Source: Streptomonospora salina (GTDB taxonomy: Bacteria; Actinomycetota; Actinomycetes; Streptosporangiales; Streptosporangiaceae). Taken from it: a stretch of DNA of 64,000 bases. The notes below the pieces were generated by a model, which was not told the origin of the DNA, ran no database searches, and saw only the letters and a list, made by a program, of their open reading frames with translations. The stretch covers positions 4,548,501-4,612,500 of the forward strand of contig NZ_JACHLY010000001.1 in the NCBI RefSeq assembly GCF_014204715.1, in the 5' to 3' direction. Shown here piece by piece: positions 41,532-48,167 of this stretch. Position 1 is the first letter of the stretch. Each line of letters opens with the position of its first letter. The position numbers and the translations under genes were made by a program.

Positions 41532-41563
41532 GCCGGGGCGGGCGCGGCCGCGCCCGCCCCGGC
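41532..41563 (-). terminator. Perfect 14-bp hairpin directly after the CHAT gene
   Basis: GCCGGGGCGGGCGC (41532-41545) pairs exactly with GCGCCCGCCCCGGC (41550-41563) around a GGCC loop that is itself self-complementary, so the whole 32 bases are one palindrome. It starts 4 bases beyond the CHAT stop codon on the minus strand, a good factor-independent terminator without a U-tract. Confidence 0.8.
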
Positions 41564-41567
41564 CGCT

Positions 41568-44180
41568 TCATCCGGTGCCGTAGCAGACGAAGCCGGCCCC
41601 GGCGAGGTGGTCGGCGACGGCGCGGGCGGGCGCGGTCCCTGCGCGCAGCGCCCGGTGGAACCCCAGCATGGCGGATCCGACGGTCCGGTCGCTGACCGGA
41701 AGCACGCCGGCGACCACGACCCGGCCGCCCATCGCGAGCAGCGACGCGGCCATTCCCAGGGGAGCCCCCGACGACGCCGGCATCGCGCCGCCCACCCAGC
41801 ACGACGACAGCACGGTCACCCGCGGTGCGCGGGAGAGGCGTTCGATGTCGTAGGCGAACAGCGGCCCGTCCTCCATCCGCACCGCCGCGAGCATCGGAGT
41901 CTGCGCCGACGCCGAACCGTGCGCGGCCAGGTGGGCGACGCCTGCGCCCGCCGCCGCCCGCAGCACCTGCTCGACGCGGGCCTCTGCGCCGCGCAGTACC
42001 GCGGCGCCCGGGTACACCGACGCGAGCGCCCCCACCTCGCCGGCGGCGCCCTGGGGAGCGCCACCGGCGGCCAGCACCACCCGCCCGGGCCCGGTCGGCG
42101 GGTCCGCGTCGGCGCCGCCGCCTGCCAGCCAGGCCCGGCCCGAGGGCGCCACGCTGACCTCGCGGCCGCGCAGACTCGGCAGCAGGCCCCACGGCAGCGC
42201 CTGTACCGGGGGAGACGGGGCGATCACCAGGGGCCGGTCGCCGACCGTTTCGGAGACCGGACCGATCAGCAGGCGATCGACGCGGCGGGCCGCCGCCGCG
42301 ACGCCGTCGGGAGCAGACGTCTCTTCGTCTCCCGACAGCACCCGCGTGCGGGCGGCGTAGGACAGTTTCGCCACGGCGTCCTCGACGGCGGGCGCGGACG
42401 GAAGCGGGTGCAGGCGCGTGCGGCCGTCGACGACGGTGATCGCGGTGTCCGTGCCGTGCACGCGGACATAGCGGACGAAGGCGCGGCCGGCCAGGTTCCG
42501 GGACAGCGCCGCGGCCGCCGGCGGTTCGTGCCGGGACGGTGCGCCGCCGCTCTCGGCGGTCATGCAGTCGGCGTGCCACTGGGCCGTGCTCAGGGTTTCG
42601 GCGAGCGCGGGGAGTTCGCGCCGGGCGGCGGCGTCTCCGCGGTGCGCGCGGGCGTGCAGGGCGCGGCACCGGTCCAGCAGGTCCAGCCACGGGCCGTTGC
42701 GGCACGGACCCGCGGGCAGCGCCGGTGCTGAGGCGAACTCGGTCCAGTCCAGCGCCGCCGGCGCATCGCCCGCGCGCAGTGCGGCGCGTGCGCCCGCCGC
42801 GGCGACCTCGCGCCGGTGGGCGCGGGCGTGGACGATCAGTTCCAGGTGGCGGGCCGGCCGGTGCCCGCCGGGCGGGTCCACCAGCCGGCCGCGGGGGGAC
42901 CGGTGGTCGCCGGCGGCGATGACGCGCAGCGCCGCGGCTTCGGGGCCCGACGGAAGCATCGCCGACACCGGCCCCAGCGGAGCGCTGTGGACGCAGTGCG
43001 CCAGGGCCGTGGCGGCTTCGGCGGTGTCGGCGCAGCCGGAGCCGGCGCCTGCGGGCGGCGGGCAGCGGTGCGTGTCGTCGCGGCGCGGGTTCGGCGGCGC
43101 CGCGCCCGGCCCGGGGCCGGCGCCCCCGTTCGCCGGTCCCCGGCGGGTCGAAGGCCGGGTGAACCGCGGCGGGGCCGAGCGCTGCGCGGGCACGGCGCTG
43201 TGGCGGGCGGACCATTCGATCAGGCGGGCGAGTTCGGCCCAGAGGGAGTCGTCGCTGAAGCCGCGTCGCAGCCGGCGGGCGAGGCCGCGTGCGGCGCGGG
43301 TGTCCCCGCGCGCCAGCAGGACTTTGGCCTGCAGCAGTCCCGCCGTCGCCGCCTCCGTGGTCGCCCGGCCGCCGCCGTACCGCCCCGAGGCGGCGCCCAG
43401 TTCGCCCAGTCCGCCCAGCATCCGCGCGGCCTCGCGGTGCATACCCGCCGCCAGGAGCGCGTCGGCGTGGTCCATGCGCACCAGCGGCAGCCGCTGCGCC
43501 GGGACGAGGCGCTCGGCCTCGCCGAAGCAGGCGACCGCGCGGGCCGGGTCGCCGGTGCGCACCGCGAGGCAGCCGAGGTTCTGCAGCGCGACTCCGCGCA
43601 GCGCGGTCTGCCCGCTGTCGGAGGCGCGGCTGAGCGCGCCTTCGAGGTCGGCGGCGGATTCGGCGAGGCTGCCCGCGTACATCAGCGCCAGGCCGCGGTT
43701 GCTCAGCACTCCCGGCAGCAGGCTGCGGTCCGTGTCGCCGTCGAGGGCGTCCAGTGCCGCGTCGAACCCGGCGACGGCCGTGTCGAAGCGGCCGTGCTGG
43801 GCCGCCGCCAGGCCGTGGTGGGTCAGCAGCATCGCGCGCGCCGAGGCGGTGTCGGCGCTCAGGCGGGCGAGGGTGCGCGCCGCGTATCCGCCGCTTCCGC
43901 GCAGGGCGAGCAGGCCCAGCCGGGAGGCGCGGGCCTGGGCCGCGTGCTCGGGGTCGCCCGCCCGCGCCGCGACGGCCGCCGATTGGCGCAGCAGGCGTTC
44001 GGCGCCGGCGGGGTCGCCCAGTTCGCGGCGGGCCGCGCCCAGGGTCCGCAGGGCGATCGACCGGGTGGTGGGGGTGCAGTCGTCGCCGAGGACCTGTTCG
44101 GCCCGGCGCCGGGCCAGATCGGGGTCGCGCGCGACCAGAGTGATGGGATCGAGGGTGCCGTCGGTCCGCCCAGGGGTCAT
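41568..44180 (-). CDS. TPR-CHAT (caspase-like) protein, 870 aa
   Basis: Residues about 1-330 form tandem TPR-like helical hairpins (ATTRSIALRTLGAARRELGD; FDTAVAGFDAALDAL; NRGLALMYAGSLAESAADLEGAL; LQNLGCLAVRTGDPARAVACF). A Pro/Ala-rich linker (about 335-400) follows, then another helical part and a C-terminal CHAT peptidase domain (about 590-870). The caspase-fold dyad is H754 in HLAAHGSAS and C794 in VLSSCWVGG, with LPWGLLPSL and VVVAGVLPVSD also typical. CHAT domains are cysteine proteases related to separase and caspase. It is the last gene of the sigma-factor cassette, though a 444-base gap precedes it. Both catalytic residues are present, so activity is likely. Confidence 0.9.
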   Translation of the reverse strand: MTPGRTDGTLDPITLVARDPDLARRRAEQVLGDDCTPTTRSIALRTLGAARRELGDPAGAERLLRQSAAVAARAGDPEHAAQARASRLGLLALRGSGGYAARTLARLSADTASARAMLLTHHGLAAAQHGRFDTAVAGFDAALDALDGDTDRSLLPGVLSNRGLALMYAGSLAESAADLEGALSRASDSGQTALRGVALQNLGCLAVRTGDPARAVACFGEAERLVPAQRLPLVRMDHADALLAAGMHREAARMLGGLGELGAASGRYGGGRATTEAATAGLLQAKVLLARGDTRAARGLARRLRRGFSDDSLWAELARLIEWSARHSAVPAQRSAPPRFTRPSTRRGPANGGAGPGPGAAPPNPRRDDTHRCPPPAGAGSGCADTAEAATALAHCVHSAPLGPVSAMLPSGPEAAALRVIAAGDHRSPRGRLVDPPGGHRPARHLELIVHARAHRREVAAAGARAALRAGDAPAALDWTEFASAPALPAGPCRNGPWLDLLDRCRALHARAHRGDAAARRELPALAETLSTAQWHADCMTAESGGAPSRHEPPAAAALSRNLAGRAFVRYVRVHGTDTAITVVDGRTRLHPLPSAPAVEDAVAKLSYAARTRVLSGDEETSAPDGVAAAARRVDRLLIGPVSETVGDRPLVIAPSPPVQALPWGLLPSLRGREVSVAPSGRAWLAGGGADADPPTGPGRVVLAAGGAPQGAAGEVGALASVYPGAAVLRGAEARVEQVLRAAAGAGVAHLAAHGSASAQTPMLAAVRMEDGPLFAYDIERLSRAPRVTVLSSCWVGGAMPASSGAPLGMAASLLAMGGRVVVAGVLPVSDRTVGSAMLGFHRALRAGTAPARAVADHLAGAGFVCYGTG

Positions 44181-44624
44181 GGGGCAGTGCCTTTCGCCGC
44201 CGGTGCGAGGGGGTCAGTGGAGCGGGGCTGAGCGCACGGCCGGCGCCCGCCGTTTCCGCATACGCAACGTGACCGACGGTACCGACCCGGTTGCGTATCC
44301 GTGTAGGGCGAAGGCCCGCCCTGTCCGGATCCCCCCGGTACGTGCCCCGGCAGTGTCCGCATCAACCGGGCATACCGCCCCCTGGCGGCCTGCCCGCAAC
44401 AGCGGCCGGGGACCGCCCCAATCCCGCGTGCCCGGACCGCGGCCCCGGTGCCGGACACGTTCGGGAATCCGGCCGGGCACGGTGGGCGGACGGGGTGCCG
44501 GCGCGTCGGTCGCCTCCCCGGATGCCGGGGACGCGGACGGAGCTGCGGGCCTCGCCGGAGACCGCGGGGCGGGCGTCGCTGGGACGCGGGGCCCGTGACG
44601 GACGGGCCGGGCACCGGAAGCCGT
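44181..44624. other. Gap inside the sigma-CHAT cassette, no gene supported
   Basis: The 444 bases are unusual for an otherwise tight cassette. One minus-strand frame of 145 codons spans it but is Arg/Pro-rich and looks out of phase with coding bias. The only clear structure is a 9-base inverted repeat at 44260-44298, 80-120 bases before the CHAT start. The gap probably holds a separate promoter or regulatory site for the CHAT gene. Confidence 0.5.
44260..44298. promoter_or_regulatory. Inverted repeat upstream of CHAT gene
   Basis: ATACGCAAC (44260-44268) is matched exactly by GTTGCGTAT (44290-44298) with 21 bases between. The sequence is AT-richer than its surroundings and its half-sites face the CHAT start, so it is a candidate operator or promoter element. 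Centre-to-centre spacing is 30 bases, about three helical turns. Confidence 0.45.
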
Positions 44625-45149
44625 TCAGAGGGTGAGCCAGGGGGTGGCGACCGGGCGCTCGGCGGCGGAGCCGTGGAGGACGAGGCTGATCGGGCCGGTG
44701 GGTATGGCGGCGGCGACGAATGAGCCGCCGTCGTCGACGGCGGACCAGGCGCTGCCCCGGGCCGTGCGTATCTCGACCTGCGTCGGGCCCGCCGGGTCGA
44801 TGCGCCCGACCAGGGTGCGCAGGTCGTCGTCGGCGGTGACTTCCACGCCCACGGAGGTGTCGGCGGTATCGAAACGCAGGTAGCGCGGCGCGTCGGCGAG
44901 GGCGCCGGAGTCGCGGACGCCGGCGGCCGGAGTGTCGGCGGAGTCGGTGCGCAGCTCGGTCATCACCGCGTCGTCGCGGCGTGCGGCGTAGGCGGCTCGG
45001 GCCGCCGCGCGGACCGCGCCGCTGACGGGACCGCCGGGGCCGTGCTCGGCGTGCAGTTCGGCGACGAGGCGGTCGAGGTCGGGCTCGCCGGCGTCCTCGC
45101 CCTGCGAAAGCGGGGGCGCCCCCTCGGGCGCCGGGTCGCTGCCGGTCAT
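44625..45149 (-). CDS. Small beta-rich partner protein of the sigma-CHAT cassette
   Basis: I do not recognise a named family. The 174-residue protein has an acidic, disordered N-terminus (about 1-25), a helical part with LDRLVAELHAEHG and AVRAAARAAYAARRDD (about 28-70), and a beta-rich C-terminal half (about 85-174, RYLRFDTADTSVGVEV, then VEIRTARGSAWSAVDDGG). It ends in T-x-W-L-x-L. I chose the ATG at 45149 since AGGAAGG lies 7 bases before it; an ATG at 45170 overlapping the sigma stop (ATGA) is the alternative. Position between sigma factor and CHAT suggests a sensor, adaptor or protease target. That is inference. Confidence 0.78.
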   Translation of the reverse strand: MTGSDPAPEGAPPLSQGEDAGEPDLDRLVAELHAEHGPGGPVSGAVRAAARAAYAARRDDAVMTELRTDSADTPAAGVRDSGALADAPRYLRFDTADTSVGVEVTADDDLRTLVGRIDPAGPTQVEIRTARGSAWSAVDDGGSFVAAAIPTGPISLVLHGSAAERPVATPWLTL

Positions 45150-45166
45150 GAGGGTGCCTTCCTGGG

Positions 45167-45838
45167 TCATCGCCTGCCCGGGCCCGCCGGTCGGGCCCGG
45201 TCCCGTTCCCGGCCGTCGCCCGGGTCAGTGCGGGCGCTCCCCTCCTCCGCGCCGCCGTCGCCGCGGGGAGCGCCGGCCCCGTAGCCCTGCTCGGTGAGCA
45301 GGCGCTGCAGCCGGCGGCGGACGCGGCGGCGCACGGCCGGGACCTCGGCCTGCCGCAGTCCCGCGAACTCGGCGACGTCGGGGGCGGGCGAGCGCGGGGC
45401 GTGCAGCTCCAGGACGGCCACCGTCCGATCGGGTTCCGCCAGCGCGGCGATCGCGCGGCGCACCAGCGAGTCGCGTTCGGCCGCCACGGTGATCTCCTCG
45501 GGGCTGCGGCGGTCGACCGCGTGGAGCCACTCGGGTTCGGCGGGCGGGGCGCGCCGGGCCAGTCGGCGGATTCTGCCGCACTCGCGCTGGGTGGCGGTCG
45601 CCAGCCACGGGCCGACGCGGTCCGGCGTCCGGAGCCGGGAGAGGTGCTCGGCCAGATTGGACCATACGGTCTGCTCGGCGTCCTGCGCGTCGTGCGGCGA
45701 CAGGCCGTAGCTGCGTACGACGGCGTGCACCCGCACGGCGAACCTGTCGATCAGCGCCTCCCACGCCGTCTCGTCGTCGCTCAGGGCCCGTTTCACCAGC
45801 TCGCCCGTCGAGGCCTCGGCGTAGGACTGGTCAGCCAC
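45167..45838 (-). CDS. Sigma-70 family (ECF-like) RNA polymerase sigma factor
   Basis: The 223-residue protein has sigma region 2 (about residues 10-85, WEALIDRFAVRVHAVVRSYGLS, DAQDAEQTVWSNLAEHL, PWLATATQRECGRIRR) and region 4 (about 125-195, AIAALAEPDRTVAVLELHAPRS, with a helix-turn-helix VAEFAGLRQAEVPAVRRRVRRRL). A short charged tail follows. The GTG at 45838 is chosen because GGGGGG lies 5 bases upstream and region 2 starts soon after; longer in-frame starts are Pro/Ala-rich. No anti-sigma gene adjoins. It begins the sigma - beta protein - CHAT cassette. Confidence 0.85.
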   Translation of the reverse strand: MADQSYAEASTGELVKRALSDDETAWEALIDRFAVRVHAVVRSYGLSPHDAQDAEQTVWSNLAEHLSRLRTPDRVGPWLATATQRECGRIRRLARRAPPAEPEWLHAVDRRSPEEITVAAERDSLVRRAIAALAEPDRTVAVLELHAPRSPAPDVAEFAGLRQAEVPAVRRRVRRRLQRLLTEQGYGAGAPRGDGGAEEGSARTDPGDGRERDRARPAGPGRR

Positions 45839-46653: not shown

Positions 46654-47106
46654 TCAGTCTCCGTCGTGATTGCGGTCGCTCGGCGGCCCGGCGATGGCCC
46701 CGGCCAGGGTGAACAGGAACATGAACCCGATGGGGATCATCGGCCAGAACAGCACCGGCTCGGCGGCGATGATGCTGGTCACGCCCCAGATTCCGATCAG
46801 TACCACGGACACGGAGGCCAGACCGCGCCAGGGCTCCAGGCGCTCCCGCCATTCCGGGCTGACACGCTTGCCGCGGCCGCCGGCCTCCTCCGCCGGCTCG
46901 GGGACCGCCGGCGGCTCCGGCAAGTCGCGGGTCAGCGGCGACAGCTCACCGACGGTCGTGGCCCCGATGGCCCTGTTCAAGCGGTCCTGGTACTCGTCGA
47001 ATCCGAGCCGGCCTTCCCGCAGGGCGACGGCCAGACGCTCGGCGCACGCGTCGCGGTCGGCGTCTCCGGCCCGCATCTGCTCCGGAGGCAACTCCCGGTC
47101 ATCCAT
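46654..47106 (-). CDS. DUF1707 membrane protein, paralog 1
   Basis: The 150-residue protein has a DUF1707 (SHOCT-like) helical domain (about residues 8-60, MRAGDADRDACAERLAVAL, LGFDEYQDRLNRAIGATT), a Pro/Glu linker, and two hydrophobic segments (about 97-140, SVSVVLIGIWGVTSIIAAE; PMIPIGFMFLFTLAGAI). Such proteins anchor a small helical domain to the membrane; function unknown. ATG start. Nearest neighbours are two similar genes in tandem. Confidence 0.88.
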   Translation of the reverse strand: MDDRELPPEQMRAGDADRDACAERLAVALREGRLGFDEYQDRLNRAIGATTVGELSPLTRDLPEPPAVPEPAEEAGGRGKRVSPEWRERLEPWRGLASVSVVLIGIWGVTSIIAAEPVLFWPMIPIGFMFLFTLAGAIAGPPSDRNHDGD

Positions 47107-47139
47107 ACTCGTCGATCCCTCCAGCCGGAGCGGTGACGC

Positions 47140-47598
47140 TCATGTGCGCGACCCGGAACTCTCGTCGGGCCAGATGGCTGCGGCGACCAGGATCGCGGCC
47201 CAGATCCCCAGCGGCACCAGCGGCCAGTACGGCAGCAGATCACCGTGCATGGCGCTGGTGACGCCCCAGACACCGGTCATGATGACGGCGCCGCCGAGCC
47301 ACCATCGCCATTCGTCTACCCAGTCCTTCCACGGAGATACCAGGGCGGAGCGGGCGGAGCCGGAGGCCGCGGGTTCGGAGTCCTCGTGTTCGGCCGGAGG
47401 CGGAGGCTCCGGCAAGTCCGCGTACAGCGCCCGCAGCTGCCCCACGACCACGGCGCCCATCGCCTCGTCCAGGCGGCGTTCGTATTCGGCGAGGTCGAGA
47501 CGGCCTTCCGAGAGCGCGGTGGCGAGGCGCTCGGCGCAGGCGTCGCGGTCGGCATCCGAAGCGCGCATCCGGCGTTCCGAGACGCGTTCGTCGTCCAA
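47140..47598 (-). CDS. DUF1707 membrane protein, paralog 2
   Basis: The 152-residue protein has the same layout as its neighbours: DUF1707 (MRASDADRDACAERLATAL, LDLAEYERRLDEAMGAVV), an acidic linker, and two membrane segments around WLGGAVIMTGVWGVTSAMHG and PLVPLGIWAAILVAAAIW. It starts at TTG (47598) after GGGGGTGGG; the ATG ten codons later would cut into the DUF1707 domain. It lies 33 bases from paralog 1, so they may be co-transcribed. Confidence 0.85.
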   Translation of the reverse strand: MDDERVSERRMRASDADRDACAERLATALSEGRLDLAEYERRLDEAMGAVVVGQLRALYADLPEPPPPAEHEDSEPAASGSARSALVSPWKDWVDEWRWWLGGAVIMTGVWGVTSAMHGDLLPYWPLVPLGIWAAILVAAAIWPDESSGSRT

Positions 47599-47723
47599 CG
47601 CCCACCCCCTGCCGCACGAATGATGGGAATTTCACGATACGCGGCGCGCGGTCAGGAGGAAAGCGGTCGAATGCGGCGCCGCCGACAGCCGCCGGGCGCC
47701 TGCCGCCGGCGGGGCGCCGGTCG

Positions 47724-48167
47724 TCAGCGCCGGCAGCCGCCGCTCGTGGCGATCACCATCGCCCAGATGCCGAGCGGAATCACCGGCCAGAATCCCTGCA
47801 CGGCGCCCGACGCGATGCTGGAGACCAACCACACGGCCGTCATCACGGCTGCGCCGCCCATCCAGGCGTGCCACGTGCCGGTACGCTCCCGCAGCGACGG
47901 CGGCGCGTTCTCCTCGCCGGTACGGGCGAGATCGACGGGGTCGGCACCGGACGGTACGGGATCGGGGGACGCGGGATCGGGGATGTCGGTGGTCAGCGGC
48001 GCGAGCTCGCCCAGCGTGCGGGCGCCCATCGCCGAGTCCAGCCGGGACTGGTGCTCGGCCAGGTCCAGGCGCCCGTCCGAGAGGGCGTCGGAAAGCCGGC
48101 GCGCGACGGCGTCGCGGTCGGCGTCCGAGGCGCGGAGCTCATCGCGCGGTGTGAGATCGGGGCTCAA
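47724..48167 (-). CDS. DUF1707 membrane protein, paralog 3
   Basis: The 147-residue third tandem copy has LRASDADRDAVARRLSDAL and LDLAEHQSRLDSAMGARTLG, then a Pro/Asp linker and two segments WMGGAAVMTAVWLVSSIASG and PVIPLGIWAMVIATSG. TTG start (48167) preceded by GAGGAGG at 8 bases. It ends in a short CRR tail. It is 125 bases upstream of paralog 2. Confidence 0.85.
   Translation of the reverse strand: MSPDLTPRDELRASDADRDAVARRLSDALSDGRLDLAEHQSRLDSAMGARTLGELAPLTTDIPDPASPDPVPSGADPVDLARTGEENAPPSLRERTGTWHAWMGGAAVMTAVWLVSSIASGAVQGFWPVIPLGIWAMVIATSGGCRR

Follow-up and report, generated by a model that had tools for sequence, protein, structure and literature searches.

A conserved actinobacterial gene set encoding an ECF-type sigma factor, a probable anti-sigma factor and a TPR-CHAT protease: a candidate protease-triggered transcription switch

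Background

The experimentally supported circuit closest to the gene set described here is that of Csx29, Csx30 and CASP-sigma (the CASP/Craspase system, of type III-E among clustered regularly interspaced short palindromic repeats, or CRISPR, systems), in which, according to PMC10028731, Csx29--a tetratricopeptide repeat (TPR)-CHAT protease--cuts Csx30, a protein that binds and inhibits CASP-sigma. In the CalpL-CalpT-CalpS system, which is associated with type III CRISPR, a protease likewise cuts an anti-sigma factor, whereupon the sigma factor is released (PMC11229360). The gene set considered here lies on the minus strand at positions 41568-45838 of a 64,000-nucleotide stretch of the Streptomonospora salina genome (contig NZ_JACHLY010000001.1), which is termed here the window and to which positions refer unless another locus is named. 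It encodes an extracytoplasmic function (ECF)-type sigma factor, a middle protein of 174 residues and a TPR-CHAT protease of 870 residues, all located where an earlier note, made from the DNA sequence alone, had placed them. The reading favoured here, with modest confidence, is that this operon functions as a protease-triggered sigma switch, in which the CHAT protease would cut an anti-sigma factor at a G-V-R motif and thereby free the sigma factor; binding of the sigma factor and cleavage of the middle protein are predictions here, as are the place of the cut, the activating signal and the set of genes controlled.

Like the CASP/Craspase system, the window encodes a TPR-CHAT protease, a putative sigma-inhibiting protein and an ECF-like sigma factor together (PMC10028731), with the inhibition and the cleavage being predictions in the present case. 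The two sets differ in that the middle protein here has a CarboxypepD_reg-type C-terminal domain, and in that it carries a conserved G-V-R motif, whereas the sites at which Csx30 is cut are described in PMC11106740 as not conserved. Moreover, a RAMP search of the genome did not find gRAMP/Cas7-11, but gave two matches only, which correspond to separate, single-RAMP open reading frames about 240 kb away; because these are separate and there is no fused gRAMP, the triad is not a type III-E CRISPR system. (The two reading frames, at G000:C1:4833907-4836945, mark a possible type III CRISPR-like locus, L168, in whose 14-kb stretch no regular repeat array was seen.) The succession of events in CalpL-CalpT-CalpS--protease, cut anti-sigma factor, released sigma factor (PMC11229360)--is the one proposed for the window, though the CalpL-CalpT-CalpS protease is of the Lon family and has a SAVED domain. 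In the EACC2-caspase systems, as presented in PMC8195603, a caspase-like protease likewise occurs beside an ECF sigma factor and a TPR protein; what defines those systems, however, is EACC2 together with a TPR protein of the DUF1822 kind, and DUF1822 is not among the Pfam matches here.

A likeness of another kind is offered by the ECF54 sigma factors, for which a review (PMC8999054, citing Huang 2015 and Casas-Pastor 2021) reports carboxypeptidase, subtilase and CHAT proteins in a conserved context and proposes proteolytic control without an anti-sigma factor. The window sigma factor, a candidate member of ECF54, resembles this group in having conserved CHAT and possibly 'carboxypeptidase' proteins in its context, and differs from it in that ECF54 is reported there as lacking an anti-sigma factor. 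If the window sigma factor does belong to ECF54, the present analysis suggests that what is called a 'carboxypeptidase' there may be a domain of regulatory type and that an anti-sigma factor does exist; should the former hold, the published proposal would need revision. The remark in the earlier note that no established function was known holds for the open-licence literature searched, in which no function of the triad was found in print, but the association of sigma factor and CHAT protein had already been noted for ECF54.

Conservation and co-occurrence of the three genes

When the middle protein was used as a query against a panel of 60 genomes, comprising its own (5.6 Mb) and 59 relatives, matches were found in 38. 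Forty of the 42 matches outside the window were taken with long flanks (left out were G047:C907 and one of three in G035), which, with the window included, yields a middle-anchored set of 41 loci. In all 41 the middle gene is immediately preceded, on its own strand, by a sigma factor gene, and 37 of the stretches also contain a CHAT gene; the four without one are L070 and three loci near contig ends (L045, L061 and L063). A stricter tally of 39 of these loci (L060 and L071 fall just below the cut) has sigma and middle genes on one strand throughout; the CHAT gene follows them on that strand in 29 loci, is encoded on the other strand in 6 and is missing from the stretch in 4. A CHAT-anchored set of 57 loci, which was obtained from a scan of named genomes, overlaps the first set in part and counts both L084 and L085 (from one assembly, and apparently duplicates), contains all three genes in 54 loci, where CHAT is downstream on the same strand in 44 and on the opposite strand in 10. 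Taxa represented among these 57 include Streptomonospora, Nonomuraea, Actinomadura, Saccharomonospora, Prauserella, Catellatospora and Solirubrobacter, as well as metagenome-assembled genomes of Acidimicrobiaceae. Within a phylum-wide sample of 149 genomes, the middle family occurs in 15; the 16 stretches taken from this sample hold 17 further middle genes, 14 of which have an adjacent sigma factor gene on the same strand, and a CHAT gene is found in 11 of the 16.

The same association is seen at the level of whole genomes. Within the 60-genome panel, 45 genomes encode a strong CHAT match (E-value at most 6e-60, a threshold placed with knowledge of the gap that separates 5e-60 from 3e-34) and 46 encode the middle family (E at most 1e-6): 45 have both, 14 have neither and none has strong CHAT alone (Fisher p = 9e-13, relatedness not corrected for). 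The one genome with a middle gene but without strong CHAT, G029, contributes a fragment at a contig edge; at a looser CHAT cut-off of 1e-15, one genome (G056) has CHAT alone. In eight genomes a middle gene occurs in a stretch that lacks CHAT. All six of those searched (G013, G016, G058, G085, G139 and G170) encode a strong CHAT gene of the same clade somewhere in the genome (best E at most 5e-70 for every one of them), and for G085 and G016 one such gene adjoins another copy of the middle gene. In a seventh, G055, a strong CHAT match lies on another contig (E = 5e-60). The triad is thus a real, conserved and co-occurring set. The earlier note had coupled the CHAT protease to the sigma factor and had supposed that similar triads exist in other actinobacteria; both points are supported, and profile searches with a neighbourhood check, which the note had proposed, found the genes to be neighbours in most loci.

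Locus L139 (genome G150) has two middle-type and two CHAT genes within 20 kb and, by profile, only one sigma factor gene.

The TPR-CHAT protease

The protease gene (41568-44180, minus strand) encodes a TPR/helical superhelix at about residues 37-330 (43191-44072), which is supported by helices of the structural model and by Pfam matches above cut-off to TPR_12 and TPR_2 (best at residues 158-227), and a CHAT domain at residues 630-856 (41613-42293; PF12770, E = 3.7e-21, 76.2 bits against a gathering score of 24). Its catalytic dyad, which the earlier note had correctly described as intact, consists of His754 (codon 41919-41921) and Cys794 (codon 41799-41801), neither of which varies in three alignments with shared members (31, 36 and 41 sequences). 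CHAT genes at three other loci (L096, L109 and L117) appear much shorter at the N-terminus (458-542 residues from the chosen start) and perhaps lack most of the TPRs.

The model of the protein (mean predicted local distance difference test score, or pLDDT, of 80.4) has human separase as its best fold match (E = 4.4e-13; query-normalised template modelling score, or TM-score, of 0.46), and matches, among others, Csx29 (8eey_B; E = 1.5e-10, TM-score 0.36) and, in 8rw5, a chain whose title is transmembrane anti-sigma factor DdvA (E = 5e-10, TM-score 0.30), the low TM-scores indicating a likeness of fold and order rather than a close superposition. Separase, which cuts after arginine, is eukaryotic and far larger, and has another substrate. 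DdvA (PDB 8rot/8rw5) is a CHAT-domain chain whose link to sigma factor control is given by its PDB title, and the same entry is reached by a profile match (E = 6e-10); it is titled as a transmembrane anti-sigma factor in its own right, whereas in the window the CHAT protein and the proposed anti-sigma factor are separate proteins.

The middle protein and its invariant arginine

The middle gene (44625-45149, minus strand; an alternative ATG start at 45170 would overlap the sigma factor stop) encodes a protein that ends, as the pattern T-x-W-L-x-L in the earlier note implied, in T-P-W-L-T-L. Compared with Pfam, it gives a chance-level match alone (E = 0.58); an NCBIfam search gave none, and Foldseek of its model against PDB found no match at E of 0.001 or below. 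The model, which was built from 46 sequences (mean pLDDT 80.4), consists of helices at residues 25-35 and 44-55 (block pLDDT 62-73), a confident strand at 65-69, a coil at 70-82 (block mean 67 for residues 71-80) and a confident beta-sandwich from residue 89 onward (block pLDDT 90-97 from 91 on). The sandwich (residues 88-174, at 44628-44888) appears to be of the CarboxypepD_reg type, a regulatory-type domain that is non-catalytic: PF13620 is matched by 27 of 46 members of the middle family (E at most 0.1, best 2.5e-4). The helical part (residues 25-55, at 44985-45077) is proposed to be the sigma-binding remnant of an anti-sigma domain, a role suggested by longer homologues.

These homologues, termed here family f34, comprise 22 matches in 18 of 39 genomes and exceed the window protein in length. 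A sigma factor gene adjoins the f34 gene in 22 of 22 loci; these loci were taken with flanks that end before a CHAT domain could be reached, and in longer stretches from two f34 genomes (L143 and L145) a CHAT gene adjoins the middle gene. Domain searches, which cover 18 aligned members of the 22, match the f34 N-terminal domain to the NCBIfam antisigma profile in 14 (best E = 6.9e-7), to PRK13920 (putative anti-sigmaE) in 4, to Pfam zf-HC2 in 4 and to RskA_N in 2, and match the C-terminus to CarboxypepD_reg in 15. By hhalign, f34 and the middle family of the window are homologous (probability 96.8, E = 2.8e-10). From the anti-sigma-like N-terminus of f34, together with a homology that starts past it, it is argued that the middle protein is probably an anti-sigma factor whose N-terminus has been shortened. 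Hence the statement in the earlier note that there is no adjacent anti-sigma factor probably fails, whereas its suggestion that the middle protein acts as an inhibitor or as a protease substrate fits on both counts, given the N-terminus of the distant homologues and the invariant linker described below. The N-terminal domain of f34 bears a weak resemblance to class I anti-sigma factors (the zf-HC2/RskA type), from which it differs in having no cysteine in the 18-sequence alignment; in the window protein, moreover, this domain appears shortened and a C-terminal beta-sandwich is present.

Between the helical part and the sandwich lies a linker with the motif G-V-R, usually followed by G, S, D or A, whose arginine (Arg79, codon 44913-44915, in coil in the model) is conserved in 119 of 119 unique middle proteins and thereby occupies the sole exceptionless column among the residues of the window protein (next is Gly142, at 99%). 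This count excludes extra middle genes found only in the 60-genome family search, and it depends somewhat on the alignment: a first alignment, of 95 middle proteins, has Arg79 in 93, and both exceptions vanish on re-alignment. On either side of the motif the linker varies in length, with 24-84% gaps in columns 73-75 and 81-85 and none in columns 76-80 among the 119 sequences. A lone invariant arginine within a length-variable loop resembles a protease site, and judging from this pattern G-V-R is a candidate cleavage site for CHAT, with Arg79 as the candidate P1 residue.

The sigma factor

The sigma factor gene (45167-45838, minus strand, GTG start) encodes 223 residues, and its counterparts directly precede the middle gene in all 41 middle-anchored loci. 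The protein matches Pfam Sigma70_r2 (E = 8e-7, 29.2 bits against a gathering score of 24) and, in the same search, gives no region-4 match; against the NCBIfam sigma70-ECF profile TIGR02937 it scores 35.3 bits, below the cut-off of 42.9, in an alignment that spans residues 25-180. A GS[IV]GPTRxRC-like motif in region 4 is common to most other aligned relatives and absent from the window lineage (the window, L073, L074 and L076).

A sigma-70 promoter scan of the region found nothing, and a search for a promoter motif shared upstream of the sigma factor and CHAT genes, which considered four-base dyads in 44 stretches, gave a best count of 9 against 6-9 in shuffled stretches, that is, no excess. 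The element TGATAC/GTATCA has 21 matches in 93 stretches upstream of sigma factor genes (2.6 expected) and 14 in 90 stretches upstream of CHAT genes (2.5 expected). It stays a lead, because many of the sigma factor matches fall within one conserved leader of a divergent gene in relatives of the window and because related species are counted separately. Loci with the element include L060, L061, L067 and L093 upstream of the sigma factor, and L057, L065, L081-L084, L087, L088, L097 and L098 upstream of CHAT.

A proposed switch and its alternatives

Under the proposed mechanism, the ECF-type sigma factor would be kept inactive by the product of the next gene, an anti-sigma factor in which a helical, sigma-binding N-terminal part is joined by a flexible G-V-R-[G/S/D] linker to a C-terminal CarboxypepD_reg-type beta-sandwich. 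A signal or partner, sensed perhaps by the TPR superhelix, would activate the TPR-CHAT protein, which would then cleave the linker after the invariant arginine; the anti-sigma factor would then be destroyed or lose its grip, and the sigma factor would direct its regulon. More tentatively, the gene set may represent a widespread, CRISPR-free switch in which a separase-like, arginine-specific protease cuts an invariant G-V-R site in a dedicated anti-sigma factor, and of which Csx29-Csx30-CASP-sigma would be a CRISPR-captured version. If this is true, a function would be assigned to a gene set found across Actinomycetota; the remark that CHAT occurs next to a sigma factor would turn into a mechanism open to testing, in which the substrate, the cut site and the outcome are all specified; there would be a hint as to the origin of the CRISPR protease circuit; and a natural switch that joins an arginine-specific protease to transcription would be on offer.

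Several observations weigh against this mechanism. The three genes are not always found together: sigma factor and middle genes are absent beside CHAT in L094 (at a contig edge), L097 and L109; no sigma factor gene adjoins the middle genes of L130 and L131 or the second of the two in L139; and CHAT is not nearby in L070, L130, L131, L133, L135 and L144 (a short contig), nor in the three loci near contig ends named above. Nor does CHAT always share a transcription unit with the other two, since it is encoded on the opposite strand in 6 of 39, 10 of 54 and 3 of 15 loci and, in 4 of the 15, precedes them on their own strand. As for the middle protein, that of the window itself matches neither anti-sigma (Pfam, NCBIfam) nor CarboxypepD_reg profiles; the antisigma matches of f34 are weak (15.4 to 23.3 bits, where scores are shown, against a curated cut-off of 100 bits); a profile search of PDB reaches RskA at E = 0.47 only; and the part aligned by hhalign begins after the anti-sigma-like domain, so that most of that domain may be missing from the window protein. 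With regard to the cut site, the invariant arginine could instead be structural or contact the sigma factor; the strand at residues 65-69 may, according to the model, belong to the beta domain, in which case a cut at Arg79 might leave the halves together; and an invariant site would be untypical of the nearest precedent, given that the cut sites of Csx30 are not conserved (PMC11106740).

These points leave room for other arrangements of the same three proteins. The CHAT protein might be a non-cleaving scaffold or co-inhibitor that binds the middle protein or the sigma factor and releases it by a conformational change, in its capacity as a structural relative of DdvA; the fold and profile matches to chains titled DdvA speak for this. 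It is nevertheless unlikely, since a scaffold has no need of His754 and Cys794, which are invariant in the aligned relatives, and what is said here of DdvA comes from PDB titles, a literature search having found no DdvA paper. Less likely again is a scheme in which the sigma factor is the target of CHAT, which degrades it to hold the system off, and the middle protein serves as an adaptor. Such an arrangement would accord with the anti-sigma-free proteolytic control that the review in PMC8999054 proposes for ECF54, with its context of carboxypeptidase, subtilase and CHAT proteins; yet it is the middle protein that has distant homologues with an anti-sigma-like domain and that contains the invariant linker arginine, and the ECF54 'carboxypeptidase' may be the CarboxypepD_reg-type regulatory domain seen here.

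The least likely of these alternatives is that CHAT, once activated, attacks many proteins of the cell, with growth arrest or death as the result, and that the role of the sigma factor and middle protein is confined to controlling CHAT expression or keeping CHAT inactive. Caspase-like proteases do occur in systems proposed to mediate cell death or to counter invaders, some of them with an ECF sigma factor (PMC8195603), and genes of contractile-injection type follow CHAT in Catellatospora and Rhizocola; the latter are the nearest hint, and an indirect one, of the cell death envisaged in the earlier note. Against this alternative, several clusters of neighbouring genes are shared by as many as 31 of the 57 CHAT loci; judged by eye, they comprise fatty-acid-synthesis and other chromosomal genes, and such recurrence suggests vertical inheritance. 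Among plasmid records, none encodes the middle protein at E of 1e-5 or below, and PADLOC gave one weak match alone for the CHAT protein (BovA, E = 0.071). (Among phage records, an unannotated one matches CHAT in part.) The tight pairing of CHAT with one sigma-middle pair suggests a dedicated partner.

Noncoding features and neighbouring genes

Four bases past the last stop codon of the gene set lies a perfect, GC-rich palindrome of 32 nucleotides with 16-bp arms (41532-41563, minus strand), the longest perfect palindrome in the window (the next longest has arms of 10). The earlier note had described it as a palindromic terminator: the palindrome is there, but its role as a proven terminator is not supported, inasmuch as a T-run is absent, a terminator scan of the region found no site, and the palindrome is only partly kept in Streptomonospora alba (L033). 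It may thus be a terminator that lacks a T-run. The gap between the middle and CHAT genes measures 444 bases and contains an inverted repeat, ATACGCAAC...GTTGCGTAT, at 44260-44298, one arm of which is kept in S. alba and neither in two other relatives.

Eight loci of Catellatospora and Rhizocola (L081-L085, L087, L088 and L098, with L084 and L085 alike) share genes located after CHAT. Three of the encoded proteins, tested in two loci, match CarboxypepD_reg, a T4 gp19-type tube protein (E = 2.5e-38) and CIS_tube, and are thus of contractile-injection or CarboxypepD_reg type; examples of such genes are found at L084:7230-9770 and L088:11058-11771. In the window itself, three successive genes for DUF1707 proteins are encoded near the triad on the minus strand, at 46654-48167.

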